Shown: positions 1 to 28,089 of the stretch, in pieces
Position numbering within the stretch: position 1 is the first letter of the stretch
How the letters are laid out: every line of letters begins with the position of its first letter
DNA from: a virus
Direction: 5' to 3' (one strand)
IMG/VR virus record: IMGVR_UViG_3300020165_000119
Span: 1 to 28,089 of that record
Length of the DNA stretch: 28,089 bases
Notes under the pieces: generated by a model
The model's database searches: none
Seen by the model: only the letters and a program-made list of their open reading frames with translations
What the model was told of the DNA's origin: nothing
Made by a program: the position numbers and the translations under genes

Positions 1-862
1 AAGTACCTGATGAACCTGAAGTACCTGATGATCCTGAAGATCCTGAAGAACCTGATGATCCTGATGTACCTGATGATCCTGAAGTACCGCTTGATCCTGA
101 AGTACCACTTGAACCTGAGCTTCCTGAAGAACCTGATGATCCTGATGTACCTGATGATCCTGAAGTACCGCTTGATCCTGAAGTACCTGATGATCCTGAA
201 GATCCTGAAGAACCTGATGATCCTGATGTACCTGATGATCCTGATGTACCGCTTGAACCTGAAGTACCACTTGATCCTGATGATCCTGAAGAACCTGATG
301 ATCCTGATGTACCTGATGATCCTGAAGTACCGCTTGATCCTGAAGTACCTGATGATCCTGAAGATCCTGAAGAACCTGATGAACCTGATGTACCTGAAGA
401 ACCTGACGTACCTGATGAACCTGAAGAACCTGATGATCCTGAAGATCCTGAAGAACCTGATGAACCTGATGTACCTGAAGAACCTGACGTACCTGATGAA
501 CCTGAAGAACCTGAAGAACCTGATGTTCCTGAGCTTCCTGATGTACCGCTTGAACCTGAAGTACCACTTGATCCTGATGAACCTGATGAACCTGACGATC
601 CTGAAGTACCACTTGAACCTGATGTACCTGAAGAACCTGAAGTACCACTTGATCCTGAAGAACCTGATGAACCTGACGATCCTGAAGTACCACTTGAACC
701 TGAAGTACCGCTTGATCCTGAAGTACCACTTGAACCTGAGCTTCCTGAGCTACCTGATGAACCTGATGTACCTGAAGAACCTGAAGTACCTGATGATCCT
801 GAAGTACCACTTGAACCTGAGCTTCCTGAGCTACCTGATGAACCTGACGATCCTGATGAACC
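1..862 (-). repeat. Gly-X-Y coding array 4 (at least 95 triplets, runs off the window)
   Basis: 861 nt in frame (862 down to 2), 95 triplets plus a partial one, still repeating at the window edge. It begins directly after the sequence A-G-D-A that closes module 3. Positions 36-521 hold a six-copy, 81-bp higher-order repeat. Confidence 0.92.
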
Positions 863-3800
863 TGCATCTCCTGCTATTGCAAAATGAACAGACATTACTT
901 CAGTATTAGCAAATGCTACACCTGTTGGATTAGTAACACTTACTCTATACCAATCATTATCAGCACCTGCACCTGCATTAAATTGTATTGCTGTTATTTC
1001 AGCTACAAATATAGATGCATCGTCATTTTGTGCAGATTGCATATAAATTATACCCTTAGGAGTATTTGTTGAATCATCCCAAGTTGATATCCATGTACTT
1101 AAATCTGCAGGTCCAGTTGATATTACAGATATTGCAAATTGGGTTACTGATGATGGAGAAGCATCATTAAATCTAATTGTACTATCCCCAGGTTGAGCCA
1201 TTGTGGTGGTATTATTAAATCTATAATTTACACCACCTCTATAACCACTAGATCCTGAAGTACCACTTGAACCTGATGTGCCTGATGATCCACTTGATCC
1301 TGATGTACCTGATGAACCTGAAGTACCTGAGCTTCCTGAAGTACCGCTTGAACCTGATGAACCTGAAGTACCACTTGAACCTGATGAACCTGAAGTACCA
1401 CTTGAACCTGAAGTACCACTTGAACCTGAAGAACCACTAGTACCTGATGAACCTGAAGTACCTGATGAACCTGATGTACCGCTTGAACCTGATGACCCTG
1501 AAGTACCTGATGAACCACTTGAACCTGATGTACCACTTGAACCTGATGTACCACTTGAACCTGATGTACCGCTTGATCCTGAAGTACCTGATGAACCTGA
1601 AGAACCGCTTGAACCTGATGAACCTGATGAACCTGAGCTTCCTGAAGAACCACTTGAACCTGAAGATCCCGAAGAACCTGAATTACCTGTTGCTGAGAAG
1701 CTTACTACAACATCATCATTGGTAGAAAAAGTTGGAGTATATACTATTGAGGTAAGAGCAAATTGGTAATAATTTGTTAAAGTTGTTTTTGAAGTAACAG
1801 TCGCAACTAATATGTCTCCACCACTATCTCTCATTTGTACAGTGACTGTACCGTGTCCCGTTGTAGAATTTCCTGTACTATCCCAGTTATTTAACCAATT
1901 AACTTGGCTTACATTATTTTGATCAAATTTATTAATTTGAAGTGTAGTTGGAGATGAAGTAATGCCCAAAAATCCATTTGAATTAATTCCTGATGAATTA
2001 AATCTGTATTCCACTCCTCCTCTATCACCGGATGTACCTGATGATCCACTTGATCCTGAAGTACCTGATGAACCTGAAGTACCGCTTGAACCTGATGTAC
2101 CACTTGAACCTGATGATCCTGAAGTACCTGATGAACCTGAAGAACCTGAAGTACCTGAGCTTCCTGAAGTACCTGAGCTTCCTGAAGTACCGCTTGAACC
2201 TGATGAACCTGAAGTACCTGATGAACCTGATGTACCTGAAGAACCTGAAGTACCTGATGAACCTGAAGATCCTGAAGTACCGCTTGAACCTGATGAACCT
2301 GAAGTACCTGATGAACCTGATGTACCTGAAGAACCTGAAGTACCTGATGAACCTGAAGATCCTGAAGTACCGCTTGATCCTGAAGTACCTGATGATCCTG
2401 AAGATCCTGAAGTACCACTTGAACCTGAAGTGCCACTTGAACCTGACGATCCTGATGTACCTGAAGAACCACTAGTACCTGAAGAACCTGATGTACCTGA
2501 TGATCCACTTGATCCTGAAGTGCCACTTGAACCTGAGCTTCCTGAAGAACCTGATGATCCTGATGTACCTGAAGAACCACTAGTACCTGAAGAACCTGAA
2601 GTACCTGATGAACCTGATGATCCTGAAGTACCGCTTGAACCTGAAGTACCGCTTGAACCTGAAGTACCTGATGATCCTGAAGATCCCGAAGTACCGCTTG
2701 ATCCTGAAGTACCTGATGAACCTGAGCTTCCTGATGTACCACTTGAACCTGAAGAACCTGATGTACCACTTGAACCTGATGATCCTGAGCTACCTGATGA
2801 GCCTGCATCTGGTAAAAATGTTACTGATACTTTTTCGTTAGTTGAAAAATCAGTTGCACCACCCCCACCTGTAGTACCTTGTGGTGATGTTACTGTAAAT
2901 GTTAAATTATTAGCTCCTCCTGCCCATGAAAATGAAGTTACTTCTGCTTGAAATGATTTATCTCCTCCTGCATTTAATATTTGTAATAAACCTTTTCCTG
3001 GGCCATCATTTATGTAATTAAAGAATGGTACTACACTACCTCCTTGATTATTTAAATTATCTAATTCTACTTCAGTAACTGATGCTACTATACCATTATC
3101 AAAATTTAATTTACCTGCTGTTACTGAAGTTGCAGGGTTAACATAATCAAAAGGAATACCACCAACTATACCTGAAGATCCTGATGAGCCACTTGAACCA
3201 CTTGAACCTGATGTACCTGATGAACCTGAAGTACCTGATGAACCACTTGATCCTGATGTACCACTTGATCCTGATGTACCACTTGATCCTGAAGAACCAC
3301 TAGTACCTGAGCTTCCTGAAGTACCGCTTGAACCTGAAGTACCGCTTGAACCTGAAGAACCTGAAGTACCTGATGAACCTGAAGAACCACTAGTACCTGA
3401 GCTTCCTGATGTACCGCTTGAACCTGAAGTACCACTTGATCCTGATGAACCTGATGTACCTGAAGAACCACTTGATCCTGAAGAACCACTAGTACCTGAG
3501 CTTCCTGAAGTACCGCTTGATCCTGAAGTACCGCTTGAACCTGAAGAACCTGAAGTACCTGAAGAACCTGAAGAACCACTAGTACCTGAGCTTCCTGATG
3601 TACCGCTTGATCCTGAAGTACCACTTGATCCTGATGAACCTGAAGTACCTGAAGAACCACTTGATCCTGAAGAACCACTAGTACCTGAGCTTCCTGAAGT
3701 ACCGCTTGATCCTGAAGTACCACTTGATCCTGATGAACCTGATGTACCTGAAGAACCACTTGATCCTGAAGTACCACTTGATCCTGAAGAACCACTAGTA

Positions 3801-5416
3801 CCTGAGCTTCCTGAAGTACCACTTGATCCTGAAGTACCACTTGAACCTGAGGATCCTGAAGTACCTGATGAACCACTTGATCCTGATGTACCACTTGAAC
3901 CTGATGTACCTGAAGAACCTGAAGTACCACTTGAACCTGATGAACCTGAAGTACCTGATGAACCTGATGTACCACTTGAACCTGATGTACCACTTGAACC
4001 TGATGATCCTGAAGTACCTGATGAACCTGAAGAACCTGAAGTACCTGAGCTTCCTGAAGTACCTGAGCTTCCTGAAGTACCGCTTGAACCTGATGATCCT
4101 GAAGTACCTGATGAACCTGATGACCCTGAAGTACCTGAGCTTCCTGAAGTACCTGAGCTTCCTGAAGTACCGCTTGAACCTGATGATCCTGAAGTACCTG
4201 ATGAACCTGAAGAACCACTAGTACCTGATGAACCTGATGACCCTGAAGTACCTGAGCTTCCTGAAGTACCACTTGAACCTGAAGTACCACTTGAACCTGA
4301 TGTACCACTTGAACCTGATGATCCTGAAGTACCTGATGAACCTGAAGAACCTGAAGTACCTGAGCTTCCTGAAGTACCACTTGAACCTGAAGTACCACTT
4401 GAACCTGATGACCCTGAAGTACCTGATGAACCTGATGAACCTGAAGTACCTGATGAACCTGAAGTACCACTTGAACCTGAAGTACCACTTGAACCTGATG
4501 ACCCTGAAGTACCTGATGAACCTGATGATCCTGAAGTACCGCTTGAACCTGATGACCCTGAAGAACCTGAAGTACCTGAGCTTCCTGAAGTACCACTTGA
4601 ACCTGAAGTACCACTTGAACCTGATGATCCTGAAGTACCACTTGAACCTGATGACCCTGAAGTACCTGATGAACCTGAAGAACCTGAAGTACCTGAGCTT
4701 CCTGATGTACCACTTGAACCTGAAGTACCACTTGAACCTGATGATCCTGAAGTACCTGATGAACCTGATGACCCTGAAGTACCTGATGAACCTGATGAAC
4801 CTGAAGTACCTGATGAACCTGATGTACCTGAGCTTCCTGAAGTACCGCTTGAACCTGATGAACCTGAAGTACCTGATGAACCTGAAGTACCACTTGAACC
4901 TGACGATCCTGATGTACCTGAAGAACCTGATGTTCCTGAGCTTCCTGAAGTACCGCTTGAACCTGATGATCCTGAAGTACCTGAAGAACCACTAGTACCT
5001 GATGAACCTGACGATCCTGAAGTACCTGATGAACCTGATGTACCGCTTGAACCTGAAGTACCTGATGAACCTGAAGAACCACTAGTACCTGATGAACCTG
5101 AAGAACCACTAGTACCTGATGAACCTGAGCTTCCTGATGAACCTGCAGATGAAGAACCTACAAATAACCAATTATTAATATCAGTAACGTCGGTTGCATC
5201 TGTTAAAACATAAATACCATTATTTGCTGCTGTTGTATCTTGAGCAACAGTAACAGTCATACCATTGTAGACATAAGAATTCCCATCTAAAGCAGTCCAG
5301 TTAGATGCTATAGTTAAGTCTGCTTTTGTAGGTATATTTGCCCTAGCATCAAACGCCGCTGCTGCTTCAGGTTCAAAATTTCCTGCTAATACAAATTGTC
5401 CTTGAGTTCTTCCCAT
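1..5416 (-). CDS. Giant collagen-like tail fibre/virion protein, 3' end beyond window
   Basis: One frame stays open from an ATG at 5416 to the window edge (1805 codons seen, no stop), so the C-terminus is missing. It starts 1 nt after the stop of the fibre-like gene upstream. Residues 1-91 are a unique N-terminal domain opening MGRTQGQFVLAG and containing YVYNGMTVTVAQ and NNGIYVLTD; I recall similar N-terminal modules on phage tail proteins. Then come four Gly-X-Y runs: residues 92-748 (219 triplets), 872-1129 (86), 1247-1390 (48) and 1519-1805+ (95 or more). Between them sit three related globular modules (749-871, 1130-1246, 1391-1518). X is Ser or Thr and Y is Ser in the stretches I read; the runs contain no proline or lysine. 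Gly-X-Y periodicity implies a collagen-like triple helix, hence a trimeric fibre. Its place after neck, tail completion and fibre-like genes supports a distal tail or fibre role. Receptor binding is inference. Confidence 0.88.
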   Translation of the reverse strand, partial: MGRTQGQFVLAGNFEPEAAAAFDARANIPTKADLTIASNWTALDGNSYVYNGMTVTVAQDTTAANNGIYVLTDATDVTDINNWLFVGSSSAGSSGSSGSSGTSGSSGSSGTSGSSGSSGTSGSSGTSGSSGTSGSSGSSGTSGSSGTSGSSGSSGTSGSSGTSGSSGTSGSSGSSGTSGSSGTSGSSGSSGTSGSSGTSGSSGTSGSSGSSGTSGSSGSSGTSGSSGSSGTSGSSGTSGSSGTSGSSGSSGTSGSSGSSGTSGSSGSSGTSGSSGTSGSSGTSGSSGSSGSSGTSGSSGSSGTSGSSGSSGTSGSSGTSGSSGTSGSSGSSGTSGSSGSSGTSGSSGTSGSSGTSGSSGSSGTSGSSGSSGTSGSSGTSGSSGTSGSSGTSGSSGSSGTSGSSGSSGTSGSSGSSGTSGSSGTSGSSGTSGSSGSSGTSGSSGSSGTSGSSGTSGSSGTSGSSGSSGTSGSSGSSGTSGSSGTSGSSGTSGSSGSSGTSGSSGTSGSSGTSGSSGSSGTSGSSGSSGTSGSSGTSGSSGTSGSSGSSGTSGSSGSSGTSGSSGSSGTSGSSGTSGSSGTSGSSGSSGSSGTSGSSGSSGTSGSSGTSGSSGTSGSSGSSGTSGSSGSSGTSGSSGTSGSSGTSGSSGSSGSSGTSGSSGSSGTSGSSGTSGSSGTSGSSGSSGTSGSSGSSGTSGSSGTSGSSGTSGSSGSSGTSGSSGTSGSSGSSGTSGSSGTSGSSGSSGSSGSSGIVGGIPFDYVNPATSVTAGKLNFDNGIVASVTEVELDNLNNQGGSVVPFFNYINDGPGKGLLQILNAGGDKSFQAEVTSFSWAGGANNLTFTVTSPQGTTGGGGATDFSTNEKVSVTFLPDAGSSGSSGSSGSSGTSGSSGSSGTSGSSGSSGTSGSSGTSGSSGSSGTSGSSGTSGSSGTSGSSGSSGTSGSSGTSGSSGTSGSSGSSGSSGSSGTSGSSGSSGTSGSSGTSGSSGTSGSSGSSGTSGSSGTSGSSGSSGTSGSSGTSGSSGSSGTSGSSGTSGSSGTSGSSGSSGTSGSSGSSGTSGSSGTSGSSGTSGSSGSSGTSGSSGTSGSSGTSGSSGSSGTSGSSGSSGTSGSSGTSGSSGTSGSSGSSGTSGDRGGVEYRFNSSGINSNGFLGITSSPTTLQINKFDQNNVSQVNWLNNWDSTGNSTTGHGTVTVQMRDSGGDILVATVTSKTTLTNYYQFALTSIVYTPTFSTNDDVVVSFSATGNSGSSGSSGSSGSSGSSGSSGSSGSSGSSGSSGTSGSSGTSGSSGTSGSSGTSGSSGSSGTSGSSGSSGTSGSSGTSGSSGTSGSSGSSGTSGSSGTSGSSGSSGTSGSSGSSGTSGSSGTSGSSGTSGSSGSSGTSGSSGTSGSSGYRGGVNYRFNNTTTMAQPGDSTIRFNDASPSSVTQFAISVISTGPADLSTWISTWDDSTNTPKGIIYMQSAQNDDASIFVAEITAIQFNAGAGADNDWYRVSVTNPTGVAFANTEVMSVHFAIAGDAGSSGSSGSSGSSGSSGSSGTSGSSGTSGSSGTSGSSGSSGSSGSSGTSGSSGTSGSSGTSGSSGSSGSSGSSGTSGSSGTSGSSGTSGSSGSSGSSGSSGTSGSSGTSGSSGTSGSSGSSGSSGTSGSSGTSGSSGSSGSSGSSGSSGSSGTSGSSGTSGSSGSSGSSGSSGTSGSSGTSGSSGTSGSSGSSGSSGSSGTSGSSGTSGSSGTSGSSGSSGSSGSSGTSGSSGTSGSSGTSGSSGSSGSSGSSGTSGSSGTSGSSGTSGSSGSSGSSGSSGTSGSSGT
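36..521 (-). repeat. Six tandem copies of an 81-bp (27-residue) higher-order unit
   Basis: Copies begin at 36, 117, 198, 279, 360 and 441, each of nine 9-bp units. Copies at 117 and 279 are identical over units 2-9 (72 bp). Copies at 360 and 441 are identical over their first 74 bp and for 13 bp before that. The copy at 36 matches the copy at 117 over units 2-7. This is beyond simple 9-bp degeneracy and indicates duplication of 81-bp blocks. Confidence 0.88.
863..1246 (-). other. Globular module 3 of the collagen-like protein
   Basis: 128 residues (1391-1518). It opens GYRGGVNYRFN, continues with T-M-A-Q-P-G-D-S-T-I-R-F-N, and has TWISTWDDSTNTPKG centrally. I recall M-A-x-P-G-x-G-x-x-R-x-N plus TWDDST as features of a module recurring in phage tail fibres, often next to Gly-X-Y repeats. 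It ends AIAGDAG and returns to repeats. Confidence 0.7.
1247..1678 (-). repeat. Gly-X-Y coding array 3 (48 triplets)
   Basis: 432 nt, exactly 48 triplets, between modules 2 and 3. It is preceded by a G-N-S triplet (1687-1679) and followed by a G-Y-R triplet, so the array edges carry the only non-Ser/Thr residues I saw in X or Y. Confidence 0.92.
1679..2029 (-). other. Globular module 2 of the collagen-like protein
   Basis: 117 residues (1130-1246). It opens GDRGGVEYRFN like module 3, has WLNNWDSTGNSTTGHG centrally and a TFSTNDDVVVSFSATG end. Same layout as modules 1 and 3 but diverged, so not a recent duplication. Confidence 0.7.
2030..2803 (-). repeat. Gly-X-Y coding array 2 (86 triplets)
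   Basis: 774 nt of the same 9-bp-periodic sequence, exactly 86 triplets, linking globular modules 1 and 2. It ends GTS-GDR before the second module, so the helix signature runs slightly into it. It contains a perfect 90-bp tandem duplication at 2191-2370. Confidence 0.93.
2191..2370 (-). repeat. Perfect 90-bp tandem duplication inside array 2
   Basis: Bases 2191-2280 and 2281-2370 are identical at all 90 positions by direct comparison, including synonymous sites. The duplicated unit encodes ten Gly-X-Y triplets, so reading frame and triplet register are kept. Confidence 0.93.
2804..3172 (-). other. Globular module 1 of the collagen-like protein
   Basis: 123 residues (749-871). It opens GIVGGIPFDYVN, has KLNFDNGIVASVTEVELD and a DFSTNEKVSVTFLPDAG end. 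It is the most diverged of the three: it lacks the W-D-S-T segment but keeps the same start, spacing and terminal strand. Confidence 0.65.
3173..5143 (-). repeat. Gly-X-Y coding array 1 (219 triplets)
   Basis: 1971 nt of degenerate 9-bp repeats encode G-S-S and G-T-S triplets with no net frame interruption: both ends are in the same frame and the length is exactly 219 x 9. Synonymous choices vary (GGT/GGA/GGC for Gly; TCA, TCT, TCG, AGT, AGC for Ser; ACT, ACA for Thr). Longer duplications are nested inside; for example, the block beginning at 4041 recurs 90 bp later at 4131. Confidence 0.93.
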
Positions 5417-5417
5417 A

Positions 5418-6614
5418 TTATACTGTAAATCTTAATTGTCTTGCACCTGTTGTAACTCCATTATGTGTATACCTATTATAAGCAACTGAGTTACCTTGAA
5501 TTATATTAGATACTGATGATATTGTAAATTGAGATAAATTAATGCTATCCCATTCACCACTAAATGTGTTAAATTGTTGTAAGCCTGTTATTGTTGACCA
5601 TGCTACTGGTATGTCTATTGTTTGTTTGTTTCCTCCTGTTTCTGCTACCATTGATACTTCTTCATATACAGTCATTGACTGTAAATCTTGTTTAGTTAAT
5701 GTACTAATACTTACTGTGGTTGCAAAGGTTGGAAAAACTCCTTTTAATGTTCTTGTTATAGTATTTGTTGTTCCAGCAGGTAAAGGATTATCAAAATCTC
5801 CTCCCACACTATTTAAAGGTTGTTGACCGGCATCATAAGAAACTGCTGATGTCCAATTATTATCACCTTGTACTATAGTATATGAAACTGTAGTATTTGT
5901 ACTATTTGATGTAGATGTACTACTCTGTGGAGATGGAACTGAACCAGGTCCTGAATAATTATATGCGTTAGGTAAACCACTTCTAAATCCATTAGTTGAA
6001 TATGCTGGGTTAATTGATCCTCTATTAAATGATGAATTTAAATTAATAGTAGATCCTGCTAATGTTGTATATACTGTTCCAACTTCTCTAAAAGTATTAG
6101 GTAAACTTGGAGTTGTAGATAATGTAAAACCGTGTGAAGGAGAAGTTAATGTGGGGTATAAAGTTGGATATAACATCAAATTCATCATTTCAGTAAATGT
6201 TTTATTTGAAAATGTTGTGTTTGTTGCTATATTATCAAATGGGGAATTGCCCGGAAAGTTTTGTGGAGTCGGAGTTGCATTTGTAAAAGTATCAGAACCT
6301 CCACCACCTCCAGTTATTTCAACATTAGCAGTATTTCCAGTAGATGTAACTGTAACTCCTGTACCTGTAAAATTTATTATATTAGCTGCTGGTAAAATTT
6401 CACTACCATCATCTTGTATTCCAATTCCACTAAAACCTGGTAGAGTTGATAAATCAAATGTTTGAGAGTTACTATTTCCTCCTTGCCCATCAGAATAATA
6501 AAAAGTTAAATCAGTACCAATTAAAGAGCCAGAATAAAATAATGACTTAAAATTGTCATCTACTTCCGTATAGGTAAGCTCAGACCCTTTTATTAATCTT
6601 AATGTTATTGACAT
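5418..6614 (-). CDS. Tail fibre-like virion protein
   Basis: 398 residues. Residues 13-26 (LTYTEVDDNFKSLF) match a motif I know from the N-termini of many phage tail-fibre and structural proteins (E-V-D-x-N-F). The rest is rich in Ser, Thr, Asn and Gly with alternating hydrophobics typical of beta-structured fibres, a Gly-rich linker near residue 101-105, and no signal peptide or membrane segment. It lies between the tail-completion-like gene and the giant collagen-like gene, 1 nt before the latter, so the two are probably co-translated and may form one appendage. The exact role (fibre, adaptor or baseplate-associated) cannot be read from sequence. A candidate promoter-like element lies 13 nt before the ATG. 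Confidence 0.75.
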   Translation of the reverse strand: MSITLRLIKGSELTYTEVDDNFKSLFYSGSLIGTDLTFYYSDGQGGNSNSQTFDLSTLPGFSGIGIQDDGSEILPAANIINFTGTGVTVTSTGNTANVEITGGGGGSDTFTNATPTPQNFPGNSPFDNIATNTTFSNKTFTEMMNLMLYPTLYPTLTSPSHGFTLSTTPSLPNTFREVGTVYTTLAGSTINLNSSFNRGSINPAYSTNGFRSGLPNAYNYSGPGSVPSPQSSTSTSNSTNTTVSYTIVQGDNNWTSAVSYDAGQQPLNSVGGDFDNPLPAGTTNTITRTLKGVFPTFATTVSISTLTKQDLQSMTVYEEVSMVAETGGNKQTIDIPVAWSTITGLQQFNTFSGEWDSINLSQFTISSVSNIIQGNSVAYNRYTHNGVTTGARQLRFTV

Positions 6615-6627
6615 ATCCTGGTTTATT

Positions 6628-6636
6628 TATAAATAT
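6628..6636 (-). promoter_or_regulatory. ATATTTATA element, 13 nt before the fibre-like gene
   Basis: The minus-strand context AATATTTATAAATAAACC also contains TATAAATA, the T4 late promoter core, in the direction of transcription. Confidence 0.45.
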
Positions 6637-6653
6637 TAAAAATAATTTCTTAT

Positions 6654-7604
6654 TTAAATACTGTCATTAAAACTTGCAGGATTATTACTTGAGTGTATAG
6701 ATGTTCTAGGATTAGTTGTATTTTCATTTTCAGGTATTCTTTTAACTGTTTCTAAATCAAATATAATTTGAGTTACATTACTTATTTTTTTAATTGATGA
6801 TAATTCTTTTTGTATAGTATCAGGAACTAAATAACCATGTAATTTTAAAGAAAAATTTGTTTTTACAACTCTATTTCCTGCATCTTCTATTTCAACAGAA
6901 GTAGCATAATTATCAATACGAGCTCTAAATTTAAATCTTTCAGGATTACCCCAATATGAGTCTGATGCATAATTCATAGCTTCTACTATTTTATTCATTT
7001 GTTCTACATAATAAGTAGATATAATAAAATCATAAGTTAAAGCTACATAATCTGGTACTACTACAGCATATGATTCTTTTTTTGGAATTCTATTATTTAA
7101 TATATTAAAATTATCATATGCATTTTTTTGGCTGTAAGGTTTTTGAAATAATTGAACATTATTAGGATAATTAGCATCTAATTTATTAGCAATATTTCTT
7201 ATTTTTTCAACATTATTACGTTTAAAGGTAATAACAGGCATCATAATTTTACCTTTTAAATCTCTATAATACCCTTGTTTTTGTACTTGGGCCCAACGTT
7301 CAGGTGAACCATAATAAACAGGTACTTTAGTTACTACACCATTTTGTAAAACTGTAGGTTTAATTATATTTTCTAAATAATAAAATATAGCTTCATCATT
7401 TTCTTTTAACCCTAATTCAAAAGGTTTTGTAGTATCTCCTCTAAAAGATACTTGATTACCTCTATTAGTTTTATCAGGGAAAGCTAAATTTGGATTTCCC
7501 GTTGAATCCCCAGTTTCAGGATTTACATAAGGTTGCTGCCCTGGAGTATTTAACAATATCTCTTTTTGTGTTTTTGGGGTTGGATTTTTTCTATTACCTG
7601 CCAT
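6654..7604 (-). CDS. Putative tail completion/sheath stabiliser protein, T4 gp15-like
   Basis: 316 residues. The N-terminus is polar and low in hydrophobics. Residues around 180-215 (YDFIISTYYVEQMNKIVEAM) followed by a beta-rich stretch ending in LKLHGYLVPD resemble the neck/tail-terminator proteins of T4-like phages, where gp15 caps the sheath and tube at the neck. The assignment rests on remembered family character and on position directly after the gp14-like gene (1 nt gap), the order 13-14-15 seen in T4. No active site is expected. It might instead be another tail-tube or neck component. Confidence 0.55.
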   Translation of the reverse strand: MAGNRKNPTPKTQKEILLNTPGQQPYVNPETGDSTGNPNLAFPDKTNRGNQVSFRGDTTKPFELGLKENDEAIFYYLENIIKPTVLQNGVVTKVPVYYGSPERWAQVQKQGYYRDLKGKIMMPVITFKRNNVEKIRNIANKLDANYPNNVQLFQKPYSQKNAYDNFNILNNRIPKKESYAVVVPDYVALTYDFIISTYYVEQMNKIVEAMNYASDSYWGNPERFKFRARIDNYATSVEIEDAGNRVVKTNFSLKLHGYLVPDTIQKELSSIKKISNVTQIIFDLETVKRIPENENTTNPRTSIHSSNNPASFNDSI

Positions 7605-7605
7605 A

Positions 7606-8190
7606 TTATATAAATCTTGCTTGTGTTAGACCTAATTTATCTGCTTGTACATAATGAGACTTACAAATAATTGAAATATTAGAACCATAATTACTTAAAT
7701 CTCCATTTAATGGAGCATTAATTGGATTAGGATTATTTGGATAATCTGGATTTTTACCTACAAAATATTGATTAGCTATTACTTCATGTACTTCATAATA
7801 TCCTTCATTATACATAATAATATCTCCTACTTGTGGAACTAAATCAGCACCATATTCAGCTGTAGTATCTGTATATGACATACCTTCTCCATTAAAATCT
7901 TCATTTTTACCTAATAAATCATCTCTTAAAAAGCTAAATTGAATTTCTTTATTAAAATCTGTTCCTAAATCACTTTCAGGATAAATTTCATCTGTTCTTT
8001 CTACTAAAGTATTAAGTAAAACTGGACCCATATAATACTTTTCGTGGGCTGCTTCACCATATAAATTAATTTTAGTTTCCTCTAATTTGTATTTATAAAA
8101 AGCACACTGTTCGGTGATTATATCCCCCATCAGTTCTCTACTCATATGTCTAAATAGACTTACATCTCGTTGTGTGCCAAATAATGCCAT
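7606..8190 (-). CDS. Putative neck protein, T4 gp14-like
   Basis: 194 residues. The N-terminus (SLFRHMSRELMGDIITEQCAF, about residues 11-31) and the following Y-K-L-E-E-T-K-I-N-L-Y-G-E-A segment resemble the head-tail connector (neck) protein gp14 of marine T4-like phages. A Q-V-G-D-I-I-M-Y-N-E-G-Y-Y-E-V beta segment follows near residues 120-134. It starts 1 nt after the upstream gp13-like stop and ends 1 nt before the next start, consistent with a co-translated neck module. The call is from memory of the family plus order. Confidence 0.6.
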   Translation of the reverse strand: MALFGTQRDVSLFRHMSRELMGDIITEQCAFYKYKLEETKINLYGEAAHEKYYMGPVLLNTLVERTDEIYPESDLGTDFNKEIQFSFLRDDLLGKNEDFNGEGMSYTDTTAEYGADLVPQVGDIIMYNEGYYEVHEVIANQYFVGKNPDYPNNPNPINAPLNGDLSNYGSNISIICKSHYVQADKLGLTQARFI

Positions 8191-8191
8191 A

Positions 8192-9391
8192 TTATCCTAT
8201 ATAAATTACTCTTGGAACTCTATCTAATTCTTTCATTACAAAATCAGATTCTGCTGTTCTTCTTTCTAATAACTTTTCTCTAGAAGTTTCATCAAAATAT
8301 GCTCTTAATTGTTCTAGTAATGCTGTTTTTTCATCTCTTGCTGCTTGTAATAAATCAGCCTGATTAAGTGTTATTTCCGCATTAGGTATAGGAACTGTTT
8401 CATATTTTCCTCTTACATATCCTAACATTTCTTTACATATAGCTAAAGTCATTTCAAAAATCCAACTTCTACCTATAGAATTTATTTTTTCATATGTAGG
8501 ATTTTCATAAGGTACTTCTGCTACTGTTTTTATTTTTTCATCATATTCATCTAATACTAAAGATGCTGATGATCTTTGTGATTTTAACATAAATTCTACC
8601 CATAAATTTCCACACCCTGTTGAATTTGATCCTGATGTATAATTTAAACTAGAAGGTATTGGAAATACTCTTAATACATTATTATGCATTTCAAATGAAT
8701 AGTTTGATATTCTTATCATATCATTTAGTTCAATTTGTTGGATTAATTGCATATCATAATTTAAGGGCATCATTAAATATCCTCCCATACCATAACCACC
8801 ATCTAATCCTCCTAAACCATCAATTCCAGCTACTGTTCCTCCTAAACCAAAACCATAACCCCCATAAGAATCTGCCCAATAAGCTGATGCAGGAGGACCT
8901 TCAAAGAATACTCTCATGATTTCAATATCATTTTTTTCTTTAAAACCATTTTGTTCAGCTATAACATTTAAATCATAATCCTGAACTCCTACAGTTAAAG
9001 GAACAGCCATTTTATGCCATGGGATATTACCTCCAGTTCCTGCTTCTGAACCATATTGTTCTGAATAGTCTATAACTCTTCCTAAATTAGGTGTTACTAT
9101 AGTTTTATTAATATTTACTGTATTTTTAGCTCCTTCTAATGTTAGATAATTTTCTCTAATTTTATAAGCATATAATTCATTTCCATATATAGTTACTGCT
9201 TCTTCAAATGCAGCATAAAAGTTTTTTGCTTGTAGTTCAATCTCTACTAAAGGATAACCCAATCTTAAAGCACAAAAATTTGCTACTTTATCTGCATCTT
9301 TTTCAAATTCTATATCATGATCGTAAAATCCAAAAGGTGTATCTCCTGGGTGAAATGAACTTGAACCGGGCCAAATTGGTATGTTTGCCAT
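8192..9391 (-). CDS. Putative neck/head-completion protein, T4 gp13-like
   Basis: 399 residues, soluble. The N-terminal half contains R-L-G-Y-P-L-V-E-I-E-L then an aromatic-rich helical segment (FYAAFEEAVTIYGNELYAY). This is the pattern I associate with head-tail connector/neck proteins of marine T4-like phages. Residues about 170-210 form a striking Gly/Tyr-rich loop (repeated GGYG and GLGG). The C-terminus is charged and helical with L-L-E-R-R-T-A-E-S-D-F near the end. It sits upstream of the gp14- and gp15-like genes with minimal gaps. T4 gp13 is smaller, so length alone does not support the match. Confidence 0.5.
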   Translation of the reverse strand: MANIPIWPGSSSFHPGDTPFGFYDHDIEFEKDADKVANFCALRLGYPLVEIELQAKNFYAAFEEAVTIYGNELYAYKIRENYLTLEGAKNTVNINKTIVTPNLGRVIDYSEQYGSEAGTGGNIPWHKMAVPLTVGVQDYDLNVIAEQNGFKEKNDIEIMRVFFEGPPASAYWADSYGGYGFGLGGTVAGIDGLGGLDGGYGMGGYLMMPLNYDMQLIQQIELNDMIRISNYSFEMHNNVLRVFPIPSSLNYTSGSNSTGCGNLWVEFMLKSQRSSASLVLDEYDEKIKTVAEVPYENPTYEKINSIGRSWIFEMTLAICKEMLGYVRGKYETVPIPNAEITLNQADLLQAARDEKTALLEQLRAYFDETSREKLLERRTAESDFVMKELDRVPRVIYIG

Positions 9392-13269: not shown

Positions 13270-15489
13270 TTAAATAGTATTCAAGTTTGAAACGAAGATT
13301 CTTCCGTAGAATTCCGGTCTTAACATCTTCTTAGCATAACGAGTTAATAAACCTTTTCTTGGAGTAAAGGTTGTTGGATCGTATACTAATGGAGTCATGA
13401 TAAGTGGAATGTATGGAGAGAATACAGCACCTGCTTCTAAGAACTGACCACCTCTGTATCCTAATAGGATAGTGTTGTCTGTCATATAAGGGTTTTTGTA
13501 AACTTGGTATCTACCATTCATTGATCCAGCTTTCTGAACACCAAATGCATAGCTCATTTTAGCAGCATCACCATCTGAGTTACTAGCAAATCCTGGAATA
13601 GATTCAATAATAGTAGCTACACTTGGAGAACATACCATAAAATTAGCTCCACCTCTAAGAGTTCTTTGGTGAATAACATTACTTAACTTCTGAACTTTAG
13701 TTCCTAAAGTTTGGAACCATTGTCCTTGAGAGTTAAAGAAATTCAAGTTACCATTCACAACACCACCAGCACCAATTGCTAAGTTGTTTTGTGCACTCCA
13801 ATATTCATCTCCAGCACCTGCTGATTCGATTAACATTGAAAGGATTTCTTGATCAATTTCTAATGAAATATACTCACTCATGATTGAAGTTAATTCAGCT
13901 TCTGCATCTAGAGAATGGTAAGCATTTAGATCTTGAGCAAACTCAGGAGTCCAAACAGCTTTTAATTTTCTAGTTTTAGCAACTATAGCTTCACTTCTCA
14001 TTGCAACATTGATTTCTGGAATAGCAATTGGAGTATTGAAACCAGAACCACCAGCAGCAGGATTACCTAAAGCAGCATTTCCATCTTCAAAATCACCTCT
14101 GTTATTATCAGAAGGTTGTAGAGTTTGTTGAACGTTAAATCCAGTTACTGTTGAATTAACACCAGCACCTAAATCTACTACCCATCCTGCAGTTGCACCT
14201 GCAGCTGAAATAGTACCTAATCCGAAGAAAGATATTACACCAGCAGCTGGAATACTTGCAGCATCTAAAGTAATTGAAATTGCAGTACCTGCAACAGCAG
14301 CTAAAGTGTTAGGAATTGCAGCACCAGACCATGTTAAAACATCACCTGCAGCATATCCTCTACCTGGGTTGTTAATAGCTACAACAGAAGCTAAACCAGC
14401 ACCAGCATTACCTAATACGTCAATTGTAAGTCCAACACCATTTGCAGAAGTTGAAGTTGTACATTTTACGTTTAAGTCATCTACACCAGCACCAGCGTTA
14501 GTACCATTAGTTAATGTTAAAGCACCAGCAGGTACAGTTGAAAGTGTACATCCAACTTTACTACCTGTTGCTAATGCATTTTGTGCAGGAGCAGGTAAGT
14601 AAGCACCTTGATCAATTTTCGTGAATGCCGGTAATTGAGTAGCTAATAAAGCATTACCTGCAGCATTTGAAGTTAAATAAAAACCTTCAATAGCTTCTAA
14701 ATCAGCAAATGTTTGCAATAATGAAAGTGCAGGAACAGCAACTGATCCAGCAATACTTAATGTAGCAGGAGCTGAACATTTAGTTACTGTAGTAGCAACT
14801 GAAGTTTGTAAACCATCAAATGCTTGAGCAGCAACACCTGTTAAAGCAAATGGGAATGTTGAATCTGCATCTAAATCTAGATAAAAATCAGCATTACCAA
14901 CAACAGCACAGTCAGTTAATTGACCACCTACAACAGTGTTGAAATTTTGAGTTGAGTATCCAAATCTACCAGCACCATAAAGACCACCTGCAGCAGCGTT
15001 ACCAAAACCACTAGTGTTAGTAGCTGGGTTAACTGGTGAAGGAGTACCATATAATGAAGTACCGTTAGCGAATGGTAATTTTGCAGCATTTCCTGCGGTA
15101 GCTGGAGATGCAACTTGAGTACCACCATATTGGAAGTCTAAGTAAAATACTAGACCTGAAGGAAGGTTCATTGGTTGAACCGAAACGAATTCTTTCGCTG
15201 CGATTTGTCCAAATACCTTTCTTACTAATGGTAAAGCAACTCCAGCCCATTGACCAGCAGCTCCCGTACCAGGGTTAAAAGTACCAGTACCTCCACCCGT
15301 CTGAGTGTTCTCTGTTACTAATTGTTTAGCTTGGTTTTCTAAGATCATAGACATATTGTTTTTGTCTTGCTCAGTAGCCATGCCTTCAAGTAATCCTGTT
15401 TTGGACCACTTGTCAGCTAATCTTGCAGCATCACTCTGTAGTGATTTGTAAGAATTAGCGCTTTCTAATAAAGAATTTAATTGTGACAT
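13270..15489 (-). CDS. 23: Major capsid protein, T4 gp23-like, with large insertion
   Basis: 739 residues against about 520 in T4. Residues 84-117 (VALPLVRKVFG, VQPMNLPSGLVFYLDF) and 504-540 (AKTRKLKAVWTPEFAQDL, then HSLDAEAELTSIMS) match the gp23 core, as do VCSPSVATIIE and the C-terminal SPYIPLIMTPLVYDP. The N-terminus has QLVTE at 56-60, aligning with the T4 prohead cleavage site (after Glu65), so a propeptide of about 60 residues is predicted to be removed by the prohead protease. About 390 residues separate the two core blocks, versus roughly 140 in T4. The extra part is Ala/Gly/Thr/Ser-rich and includes GRGYAAGDVLTW. It follows the scaffold gene by 34 nt and is closed by a terminator. 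Confidence 0.95.
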   Translation of the reverse strand: MSQLNSLLESANSYKSLQSDAARLADKWSKTGLLEGMATEQDKNNMSMILENQAKQLVTENTQTGGGTGTFNPGTGAAGQWAGVALPLVRKVFGQIAAKEFVSVQPMNLPSGLVFYLDFQYGGTQVASPATAGNAAKLPFANGTSLYGTPSPVNPATNTSGFGNAAAGGLYGAGRFGYSTQNFNTVVGGQLTDCAVVGNADFYLDLDADSTFPFALTGVAAQAFDGLQTSVATTVTKCSAPATLSIAGSVAVPALSLLQTFADLEAIEGFYLTSNAAGNALLATQLPAFTKIDQGAYLPAPAQNALATGSKVGCTLSTVPAGALTLTNGTNAGAGVDDLNVKCTTSTSANGVGLTIDVLGNAGAGLASVVAINNPGRGYAAGDVLTWSGAAIPNTLAAVAGTAISITLDAASIPAAGVISFFGLGTISAAGATAGWVVDLGAGVNSTVTGFNVQQTLQPSDNNRGDFEDGNAALGNPAAGGSGFNTPIAIPEINVAMRSEAIVAKTRKLKAVWTPEFAQDLNAYHSLDAEAELTSIMSEYISLEIDQEILSMLIESAGAGDEYWSAQNNLAIGAGGVVNGNLNFFNSQGQWFQTLGTKVQKLSNVIHQRTLRGGANFMVCSPSVATIIESIPGFASNSDGDAAKMSYAFGVQKAGSMNGRYQVYKNPYMTDNTILLGYRGGQFLEAGAVFSPYIPLIMTPLVYDPTTFTPRKGLLTRYAKKMLRPEFYGRIFVSNLNTI

Positions 15490-25855: not shown

Positions 25856-26263
25856 TTAAAATGGTAAATCTAATGGATCTAATTGTGAAGATCCCATTCC
25901 TACTCTATAACTGTCACTATCAAAATGTTGTGTCGATACCTCAAATATACAACTTCCCTCTTTAAGAGCCAACATTTGGTGAGGTTGTCCTGGCATTAAG
26001 TGAATACAATCTCCTTCTCTTACTATTACTTTATGGTGTTCAGCTGTTTCAGTATCAATGTAAGTATATTGAAACTCACCTTTAGAAATATACCATGCTT
26101 CATCTTTTAGTAAATGATAATGCATCGAAAATGATTTTTGATTTTTAAATACTAATAGTTTACCACAATAATATTCATTATTAATAATCCACAACTCATA
26201 ACCCCATGCTTTTTCATGCCTTTCTCCTTGATAAGGCATAGCTTGTAATGTATGTTCTCTCAT
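25856..26263 (-). CDS. Single-domain cupin
   Basis: 135 residues. KAWGYELWIINNEYYCGK opens a fold like the C-terminal part of mannose-6-phosphate isomerase/sugar cupins. Cupin motif 1 is SMHYHLLKDEAWYISKGEF (His48, His50, Glu55) and motif 2 is PGQPHQML (His95), giving the standard 3-His-1-Glu metal site. It would bind a divalent metal; an isomerase, epimerase or dioxygenase role is possible but not determined. The last 25 residues (HFDSDSYRVGMGSSQLDPL) lie beyond the cupin barrel. It starts 1 nt after the upstream stop. Confidence 0.82.
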   Translation of the reverse strand: MREHTLQAMPYQGERHEKAWGYELWIINNEYYCGKLLVFKNQKSFSMHYHLLKDEAWYISKGEFQYTYIDTETAEHHKVIVREGDCIHLMPGQPHQMLALKEGSCIFEVSTQHFDSDSYRVGMGSSQLDPLDLPF

Positions 26264-26545: not shown

Positions 26546-28033
26546 TTATTTTAATTTATTTTGAAATTTCATAAAATCTTTATTTTTATCATTAGTTAAA
26601 CCTCCTACAGTATGGATTTTATCATCTTCTTCTGACCATGGTCCTGGTTTATCAGCCCATTCTAAAAAATCATTAATTTCTTTTTGATTATTTAAAATTT
26701 GTTCTGCTACTAATGTACCTTGTGCTCCTGATACTGTAATACCTCTAGCACTTAAAGCATCACCTACAAAATGTATATTAGGGTATGTGGTTAAACTTAA
26801 ATCATTATAATTTACTAATGGTTCAGGTGACAAATACTTTACTTCAGGTACATAAATACCCCAATCATCTTTAAGTGTTGGGAATACTTTTTTCATATCT
26901 TCAATAAAATCTTCTATATAACTATAATAACCTTGAAATGCATCTTTAACTCGGTCTAATGATTCAATAGGCATAGCATCAACTTTAATACCTTCACTAG
27001 TCATCCCAGCTTCACGAGTAGGAGAGTAATATAAACCTGTATGAGTTTTTCTTCTAAATCTACCTTGACCTTTAGAGTTATCAAACCAGGTTTCATTTAC
27101 AGCTTTAACTAACTCTCTTGACCAAGTAAAGGGTTCATCAATACCCTGAATTTCCATTAAAATGCCAAAATTAGTCATATTGTTCCTATGCTCTTCTCCT
27201 TTTTTAGCATGTCCATTGTAACTAACATCTCCATACGTTTTTTCAACGGCAACATATGCTGCATTGTTGTTTGTACAGAAAGAGCGTAGTGATACTCCTT
27301 TGTCTTCGAATTTACGATATAATTTAAAATCATAAGATACATCAATTAATTTTTGAAAGTGTTTTTGTGGTGCTTCAAATCGAACACCTATTTGTACCGG
27401 TTTTGATTCAGTTGGTAATTTATATTTTTCAGCTAATTGTTTACCAAAGTCAATACCTGATTTACCTACACCAAAAATAAGTGTATCGTATTCAAATGAA
27501 TGTTCTAAATCAGATTCAAGTACTACTACTTTACCTGTATTATTTTCAAAATCAATATCTGTAACTTTAGCTTCCCATTCAAATTGAACACCACCATCAA
27601 CTAAAAAGTCATACCAATTTTTACCTATTTCATGTAAATAATCTGTACCAACATGCCATACTGGGAATAAACGTAATCCAAAATATGGTTTAATAAATTC
27701 TGGTTCTGCAATAGGGTTTGAACATTGTACTTCTTCGGGTTTAGGGTGGAAACGTTTAAAATTATCAATCACCTGATCAAATAATTCCATTGCTTTTTCT
27801 TCACCACAATATTTAGATAATTGCCCTCCAATTGAAGTATGATAAGTTAATTTACCATCAGACCAACCTCCTGCTCCTAGGAAACCTGTCATTACCTCTT
27901 CATATGGTCTTAAATATGGATCTTTACCCATATCAATTATGGTAATTTTACCATCAAAACCATTATCAATTAGCTTAGTAGCAGCATTTACATTTGCTAC
28001 ACCTGCTCCAATCATTACTACGTTTTTACTCAT
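26546..28033 (-). CDS. FAD-dependent dehydrogenase (COG2509-like)
   Basis: 495 residues from the ATG at 28033; a GTG seven codons upstream (28054) is possible but gives an extension without family character. The N-terminal Rossmann motif is VVMIGAGVANVNAATKL (5-21). GAGGWSDGKLTYHTSIGGQL follows, typical of uncharacterised FAD-dependent dehydrogenases (G-x-x-SDGKL). VQIGVRFEAP and SLRSFCTNNNAAYVAVEK mid-protein match the same family. The C-terminus has the FAD-contact motif HFVGDALSARGITVSGAQG. The substrate is unknown. Such a full-length oxidoreductase is unusual beside a phage packaging module. The dense A-rich leader resembles other starts here. It is the first gene in the window; its promoter may lie outside. 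Confidence 0.85.
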   Translation of the reverse strand: MSKNVVMIGAGVANVNAATKLIDNGFDGKITIIDMGKDPYLRPYEEVMTGFLGAGGWSDGKLTYHTSIGGQLSKYCGEEKAMELFDQVIDNFKRFHPKPEEVQCSNPIAEPEFIKPYFGLRLFPVWHVGTDYLHEIGKNWYDFLVDGGVQFEWEAKVTDIDFENNTGKVVVLESDLEHSFEYDTLIFGVGKSGIDFGKQLAEKYKLPTESKPVQIGVRFEAPQKHFQKLIDVSYDFKLYRKFEDKGVSLRSFCTNNNAAYVAVEKTYGDVSYNGHAKKGEEHRNNMTNFGILMEIQGIDEPFTWSRELVKAVNETWFDNSKGQGRFRRKTHTGLYYSPTREAGMTSEGIKVDAMPIESLDRVKDAFQGYYSYIEDFIEDMKKVFPTLKDDWGIYVPEVKYLSPEPLVNYNDLSLTTYPNIHFVGDALSARGITVSGAQGTLVAEQILNNQKEINDFLEWADKPGPWSEEDDKIHTVGGLTNDKNKDFMKFQNKLK

Positions 28034-28089
28034 ATTGTCATTTATTTTTAACACATTAATATACGAACTAAGAATGGCGTCTCCTAGGG

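Follow-up and report, generated by a model that had tools for sequence, protein, structure and literature searches.

Collagen-like phage fibres, virion glycosylation and TibC-type glycosyltransferases are each known singly, and searches of the open-access literature of PubMed Central (PMC) turned up no publication that links TibC-type enzymes to phage collagen. Here we describe the IMG/VR virus record IMGVR_UViG_3300020165_000119, which was analysed as a whole (28,089 bases; hereafter the window) and which carries at one edge a giant, proline-free collagen-like gene. In several relatives of this locus, a gene of the TibC/Aah family of serine (Ser) O-glycosyltransferases lies close to the collagen gene, and it is this joint neighbourhood that is new.

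Collagen is normally stiffened by proline. In the cuticle collagen of Riftia and in BclA of Bacillus, sugars on Thr or Ser of the Gly-X-Y triplets are taken as helix support; these are animal and bacterial proteins, and other enzymes are involved. Virion glycosylation of mycobacteriophages was reportedly treated by Freeman et al. in 2023. Among phages, the closest described proteins are EPclA and EPclB of Escherichia coli O157:H7, which according to the sections of the paper drawn on here are phage-encoded trimeric collagen shafts between globular domains and supposed side-tail proteins; they differ from the gene in the window in being high in proline, unglycosylated as recombinant protein and far shorter, with a chain of 47 kDa (PMC3368898). 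In mycobacteriophages, phage enzymes act on phage virion proteins, as is proposed below, although the targets named in the parts of the papers used here are the capsid and the tail tube, not collagen (PMC12363180; PMC12619734).

TibC, as characterised in the portions of the source that we cite, is dodecameric and transfers heptose onto Ser, not Thr, of autotransporters, and members of its family often adjoin an autotransporter gene (PMC4358343). Compared with TibC and Aah and their substrates TibA and AIDA-I, the phage enzymes considered here pass the family model TIGR04414, share both the catalytic Asp and the iron-finger Cys, and sit near a Ser-rich repeat protein, much as the bacterial genes often adjoin that of their substrate. 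They differ in having a collagen-like fibre instead of an autotransporter as neighbour, in the frequent loss of the adenine-binding Arg and in the replacement of Pro300, and some of them carry a fused GT4 or methyltransferase domain.

The giant collagen-like gene

The gene occupies positions 2–5416 on the minus strand. Its frame (5416–2) begins with ATG and continues for 1805 codons without a stop to the edge of the record; the C-terminus is missing because the record, a contig, ends inside the gene. An N-terminal domain of residues 1–91 (5144–5416) is followed by Gly-X-Y run 1 with 219 triplets (3173–5143; 135 GSS and 84 GTS), interspersed beta module 1 (2804–3172), run 2 with 86 triplets (2030–2803), beta module 2 (1688–2029), run 3 with 48 triplets (1247–1678), beta module 3 (872–1246) and run 4 with 95 triplets (8–862), which runs on past the record end.

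Together the four unbroken runs hold 219 + 86 + 48 + 95 = 448 GSS or GTS triplets, with modules of about 115–125 residues between them; the in-register listing gives 453, from which the five boundary triplets GIV, GDR, GNS, GYR and GDA were excluded. Position X is Ser in 286 triplets and Thr in 162, and Y is always Ser. Proline and charged residues are each absent from all 448, so that the frequent proline or hydroxyproline at X and Y of classical collagen is lacking, while the trait of the Pfam family Collagen (PF01391), long runs with Gly in every third place, is present throughout. This exact recount bore out the sequence-only reading, which had put the frame at 1805 residues or more and the triplets at about 448, with Ser or Thr at X, Ser at Y, no proline and no charge. 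The PF01391 score of the frame, 589.6 bits against a cut-off of 27.2, is inflated by low complexity and, because the sequence is so repetitive, speaks for composition and register rather than for ancestry.

Within the runs, both codon classes of Ser (TCN and AGY) are in use and Gly is spelled GGT, GGA, GGG or GGC, with the residues unchanged throughout, and a GTS triplet is never followed by another GTS (probability about 10^-41.7 for random order within the runs). Because the codons vary at fixed residues and GTS-GTS never occurs, the repeat is more than chance. Assembly could have altered the number of triplets, given that the record stops within the repeat; the same architecture of repeat runs and modules is found in relatives on other contigs. 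On the collagen reading, three chains would wind into a triple helix along the Gly-X-Y runs, and the 448 triplets would measure about 385 nm. The length of about 190 nm proposed earlier for the 219-triplet run is right, provided that the run is a collagen helix.

The composition had also been called extreme; that it is singular is not supported. A DNA pattern of 22 consecutive Gly-(Ser/Thr-type)-(Ser/Thr-type) triplets matched at least 120 stretches in IMG/VR and at least 118 in bacterial genome contigs, and among the viral matches listed one run (235 triplets, in L039) exceeds the 219 of the window. Proline-free Ser/Thr collagen runs are thus common in IMG/VR, and the protein of the window is not unique. 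The ratio of Ser to Thr at position Y was 0.83:0.04 in the viral and 0.49:0.46 in the bacterial runs matched by the same pattern (111 of the 120 viral and 74 of the 118 bacterial stretches listed, excluding duplicates and stretches of fewer than 30 triplets), while X was mixed in both.

As sole query against IMG/VR, the N-terminal domain returned no confirmed relative, and the search succeeded via a syntenic gene of 316 codons (6654–7604, minus strand). From 460 relatives of this gene in IMG/VR 80 were kept, 50 of which extend at least 2 kilobases (kb) downstream and 15 of which are readable up to the tail sheath gene (8 with and 7 without a collagen gene). A Gly-X-Y gene of at least 30 triplets follows the 316-codon gene in 37 of the 50. 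Twelve relatives were followed, two of which run off their contigs; the ten complete ones encode 2291–4977 residues with 448–1502 Gly-X-Y triplets and are thus even longer than the giant collagen-like phage protein that had been claimed for the window. Proline makes up 0–0.3% of the X and Y positions in all twelve, so that its lack is general among them, whereas the lack of charge noted for the window is not (0.6–18% Asp, Glu, Lys or Arg).

The N-terminal domain is 58–74% identical in seven aligned relatives and, distantly, 38% identical in crAss-like phages, and it is probably the virion-attached end. A weak match to a head-decoration protein (E 5.5e-4) was not used. Beta module 3 was modelled by AlphaFold2 as a beta fold, with a mean predicted local distance difference test (pLDDT) value of 84.4, and similar modelled folds in BFVD (template modelling score, TM-score, up to 0.82 over the module) occur in collagen-repeat proteins of uncultured Caudovirales, cyanophages and giant viruses. 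The tail fibre of the Pelagibacter phage HTVC010P contains the same module (30.5% identity), but has only 448 residues, with tandem modules and little Gly-X-Y. No PDB structure matched the module at E ≤ 0.001 (best 0.014). VIA-align comparison of the Foldseek matches gave Z ≤ 5.2 with mixed beta barrels, such as tail-tube/Hcp-like and galactosidase domains, which was taken as no assignment; the single profile match among PDB sequences, an antibody chain (E 0.025), was taken as chance.

At the C-terminus, two complete relatives end in an S74 intramolecular chaperone domain (PF13884; L342 with 66 bits and L254 with 67.6 bits, cut-off 22), whereas scans of two further complete relatives, L337 and L344, did not show it, four having been scanned in all. 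In the other eight of the ten, the C-terminal stretch closes with an IYFDPDKTW-like motif, as judged by eye, and the two proteins of this type that were scanned match PHROG 12121, a family of unknown function. The PHROG matches listed for the fibre fall into tail families in 14 of 25 cases. The giant gene adjoins the head-tail adaptor side of the late genes, and in eight relatives the tail sheath gene (PHROG 23) lies on its other side. It is nearly certain that the product of the giant gene is a giant virion fibre, and the fibre is probably trimeric.

TibC/Aah-type enzymes beside collagen genes

In several relatives, the interval from the giant gene to the sheath gene holds genes for glycosyltransferases and methyltransferases. 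Among PDB sequences (phmmer), TibC (4rap, 4rb4) is matched by a protein of 578 residues in L344 (E = 3e-63 over residues 221–565), by a GT4-fused protein of 700 residues in L342 (E = 3e-52) and by a protein of Microcystis phage Mel-JY01 (E = 1e-68). All nine TibC-like proteins given to the TIGR04414 model scored 262–336 bits (cut-off 200). No variation occurs at the catalytic Asp110, the donor-site residues Lys230 and Trp305 or the four iron-finger Cys across the nine rows of alignment A4 and the four rows of A1 (numbering and roles as in the parts of PMC4358343 used), and the thumb stretch of the phage enzymes aligns without the hydrophobic pair Phe265/Val266 (by eye, in the L344 and L342 alignments). 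It is these invariant columns of the four-row and nine-row alignments, and not the four-Cys count, that are sound evidence: the count is partly by construction, since the proteins were picked by part of the motif, and 18 of 160 loci are without a full match. PF00534 alone is uninformative on TibC as a marker (5 of 33 records).

The intervals hold further enzymes. In seven of the eight complete intervals (L337, L342, L344, L345, L346, L347 and L348), a methyltransferase of 169–189 residues, recognised by its motif and by eye, comes first or second behind the collagen gene, and that of L344 matches guanidinoacetate N-methyltransferase in PDB (E 6e-15). A cassette protein of 903 residues in L343 (10028–12739) has an N-terminal GT4 domain; its C-terminal GT25 match (21.6 bits) stayed below the cut-off of 24 and was not used as evidence. 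The collagen galactosyltransferases of animals belong to GT25 as well.

A TibC gene lies between the collagen and sheath genes in 5 of the 8 complete intervals with a collagen gene and in 0 of the 7 without one (56/3003 = 0.019, calculated by hand). Leaving aside a near-identical short contig (L002), the relative most similar to the window in the 316-codon gene (L323, 87% identity) has the enzyme. Two larger sets were assembled from the enzyme side. In the first, 299 of 374 pattern matches in IMG/VR encode an enzyme relative, the best 80 of which were used; Gly-X-Y runs of at least 8 triplets were found upstream in 32 of the 34 loci with at least 6 kb on that side, versus none downstream in the 46 loci with at least 6 kb there. 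After clustering at 90% identity, 19 of 20 had runs, and visual inspection of the two loci in which no run was counted (L360 and L361) shows Gly-X-Y with interruptions. The second set was drawn with the Mel-JY01 enzyme (46–60% identity), and 43 of its 80 loci have at least 7 kb on both sides. Runs of at least 8 triplets occur in 29 of the 43, 27 of those with at least 30 triplets, the collagen gene lying upstream, downstream or on the other strand; among the clusters, 23 of 35 have runs of at least 30 triplets. A strict count of Ser/Thr-rich, proline-poor runs gave 29 of 34 and 25 of 43 for the two sets. A second collagen flavour, with many GTN triplets (Thr at X, Asn at Y), was seen near the TibC genes of L449, L453, L468, L488 and L498.

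For a control within genomes, 20 long contigs (at least 84 kb) carrying the enzyme gene were chosen and compared with random windows of 20 kb at least 12 kb away from the enzyme, one genome giving a single window. Runs of at least 30 triplets were present in 15 of 20 enzyme windows versus 2 of 39 random windows (Fisher p 4e-8).

In Mel-JY01, a collagen frame with 176 triplets ends 1.7 kb before the gene of a GT4-methyltransferase-TibC fusion, with a structural and a short gene between them. Its record (PP395634, L432) opens inside the collagen frame (2–3052), and the annotated gene is only the last 534 bases of that frame; the gene containing the TibC part lies at 4750–8430. The linkage also extends to two bacterial chromosomes, where a small Ser/Thr collagen gene lies less than 200 bases from a TIGR04414 gene (2 of the 118 stretches listed); they belong to Methylococcaceae P-RSF-IL-24 (L164, 5859–8000) and Gammaproteobacterium Ww423 (L240, 1812–3689).

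The linkage provides a testable partner both for the structural question of how a collagen lacking proline could be stable and for the many environmental-phage glycosyltransferases that have no assigned substrate. The structure of the enzyme family has been solved and its preference for Ser reported, and Mel-JY01, a named phage with both genes within a few kilobases, offers a testable case.

A proposed glycosylated fibre and its alternatives

We assign a probability of about 0.58 to the reading that the giant gene encodes a giant fibre of a T4-like phage whose Ser-rich shaft is O-glycosylated by a phage-encoded TibC/Aah-type enzyme. The sequence-only reading had put forward Ser/Thr O-glycosylation as one idea for the stability of the helix; this idea is supported indirectly, because several relatives carry the gene of a TibC/Aah-family Ser O-glycosyltransferase between the fibre and sheath genes. 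On this genomic basis the shaft is probably O-glycosylated, which we hold with moderate confidence, and action of the phage TibC-type enzymes on Ser-rich collagen shafts is the best reading of the linkage combined with the known chemistry of the enzyme. The preference for Ser over Thr at Y in the viral runs is in line with this, TibC having been reported to modify Ser and not Thr (PMC4358343). The phage of the window likely glycosylates its own shaft too; the enzyme is unseen there, the record stopping short of where it usually lies.

The three chains of such a fibre would join through the C-terminal domain, and the Gly-X-Y runs would form thin collagen-type shafts spaced by the beta modules. 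With the N-terminal domain seated on the neck or tail, the fibre could reach far out to hold cells or particles. Ser residues of the shaft would be O-glycosylated in the infected cell by the TibC/Aah-type enzyme, probably aided by GT4 enzymes that the cassette also encodes, and the sugars would keep the shaft in solution, stiffen it and shield it. The boldest step, and a hypothetical one, is that sugar takes over from proline in keeping the helix together. More tentatively, at somewhat less than even odds, many aquatic phages and a few bacteria may possess a proline-free, Ser-based glyco-collagen whose helix is supported, in place of proline, by sugars from a dedicated TibC-type enzyme, with repeat and enzyme co-evolved as one system for fibres of hundreds of nanometres. 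If this is true, protein Ser glycosylation of fibres joins the ways in which phages shape host contact and shielding, and it points to a proline-free glyco-collagen material.

A number of observations weigh against a glycosylated shaft. Three of the eight complete collagen intervals (G002, G003 and G004) are without the TibC gene, including one (G002) whose N-terminal domain is 63% identical to that of the window, and from the collagen side the gene was found in just 8 of the 120 viral stretches listed (mean 8.6 kb, many of them short). Conversely, no such runs accompany the enzyme in 14 of the 43 second-set loci, and the enzyme-bearing 636-kb phage LR756504 has no match to a five-triplet Ser/Thr pattern. 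An enzyme match occurred in 1 of the 39 control windows. In LR756501, the enzyme lies at about 580 kb, near a short collagen stretch at 586–588 kb, and the main collagen region is listed from about 103.5 kb. Some positives have proline-richer or Ser/Thr-poorer runs (3 of 32 in the first set, 4 of 29 in the second), and 2 of the 15 positive windows of the control comparison (L481 and L395) are proline-rich. Part of the linkage could be passive, because structural genes cluster in phages. On the side of the enzyme, Arg286, which binds the adenine of ADP-heptose (ADP, adenosine diphosphate), is present in 58 of the 60 proteins readable in the first set and in 2 of 76 in the second, and the place of Pro300 of TibC is taken by Gly, Ser or, in one case, Ala, so that the sugar need not be heptose; the one Mel-JY01 gene that was inspected matched only a weak cytidylyltransferase model, in the absence of a systematic search for the ADP-heptose pathway. 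Family scans of the window proteins gave no glycosyltransferase, the window stopping before the usual place of the enzyme, and the AlphaFold2 model of the N-terminal domain reached a mean pLDDT of only 43.8 and was left unused.

The intervals and collagen stretches without a TibC gene would be expected if the protein were an ordinary, sugar-free collagen-like tail fibre. Trimerisation domains and modules would then hold its helix in water of low temperature, and the TibC-like enzyme would modify another virion protein (such as the product of the fibre-like gene between it and the sheath) or the host surface and lie near by module clustering. EPclA, the collagen of an E. coli prophage, is stable unglycosylated, although its authors suggest that this is owed to its many prolines (PMC3368898), of which there are none here, and a paper on pelagiphages takes phage glycosyltransferases as changing the host O-chain (PMC7029224). 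Yet the linkage is far above the same-genome control and holds across gene orders, strands and two bacterial chromosomes, and we consider a sugar-free fibre unlikely, if still a serious competitor. The total absence of proline would also suit runs that are not a collagen triple helix at all, being instead another arrangement of polyproline-II type (a polyglycine-II bundle) or a disordered hydrophilic spacer. This appears distinctly improbable given the strict period of three over 219 triplets without a break, the avoidance of GTS-GTS and the trimerising chaperone domain of two relatives; the spacer is disfavoured because it needs no fixed Gly register. An assembly artefact or decaying gene with a repeat inflated by misassembly can be dismissed almost entirely, for although the record ends inside the repeat, as repeat assemblies do, the frame has 1805 codons without a stop, its residues are fixed though codons vary, and ten complete relatives exist on other contigs.

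Neighbouring genes and phage type

The window has the terminase–portal–protease–capsid order of T4-like tailed phages, with terminase, portal, prohead protease and major capsid protein matching PHROG 2, 213, 207 and 138, followed by PhoH and the head-tail adaptor. The nearest named terminases are those of Flavobacterium phage immuto (58.7%) and Mel-JY01 (51.9%). Between capsid genes and fibre, all on the minus strand, lie the head-tail adaptor (8192–9391; PHROG 211), a conserved gene of 194 codons (7606–8190; 17 loci found), the 316-codon anchor described above and a Ser/Thr/Gly-rich protein of 398 residues (5418–6614), which has no family match and whose first 25 residues are 72% like genes of two other phage contigs. 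The major capsid protein (13270–15489) has 739 residues with its best PHROG 138 match in residues 473–721, which may be preceded by a large Ala/Gly/Thr-rich insertion.

Among large phages, the 735-kb LR756501 (L433) gave 1273 overlapping reverse-strand matches to the five-triplet Ser/Thr pattern, those listed starting from 103.5 kb, and probably has a very large collagen gene beside a TibC cassette. Near the late genes of the window there are also a cupin with weak resemblance to WbuC or lyxose isomerase (25856–26263) and a gene resembling flavin adenine dinucleotide (FAD) oxidoreductases (26546–28087).

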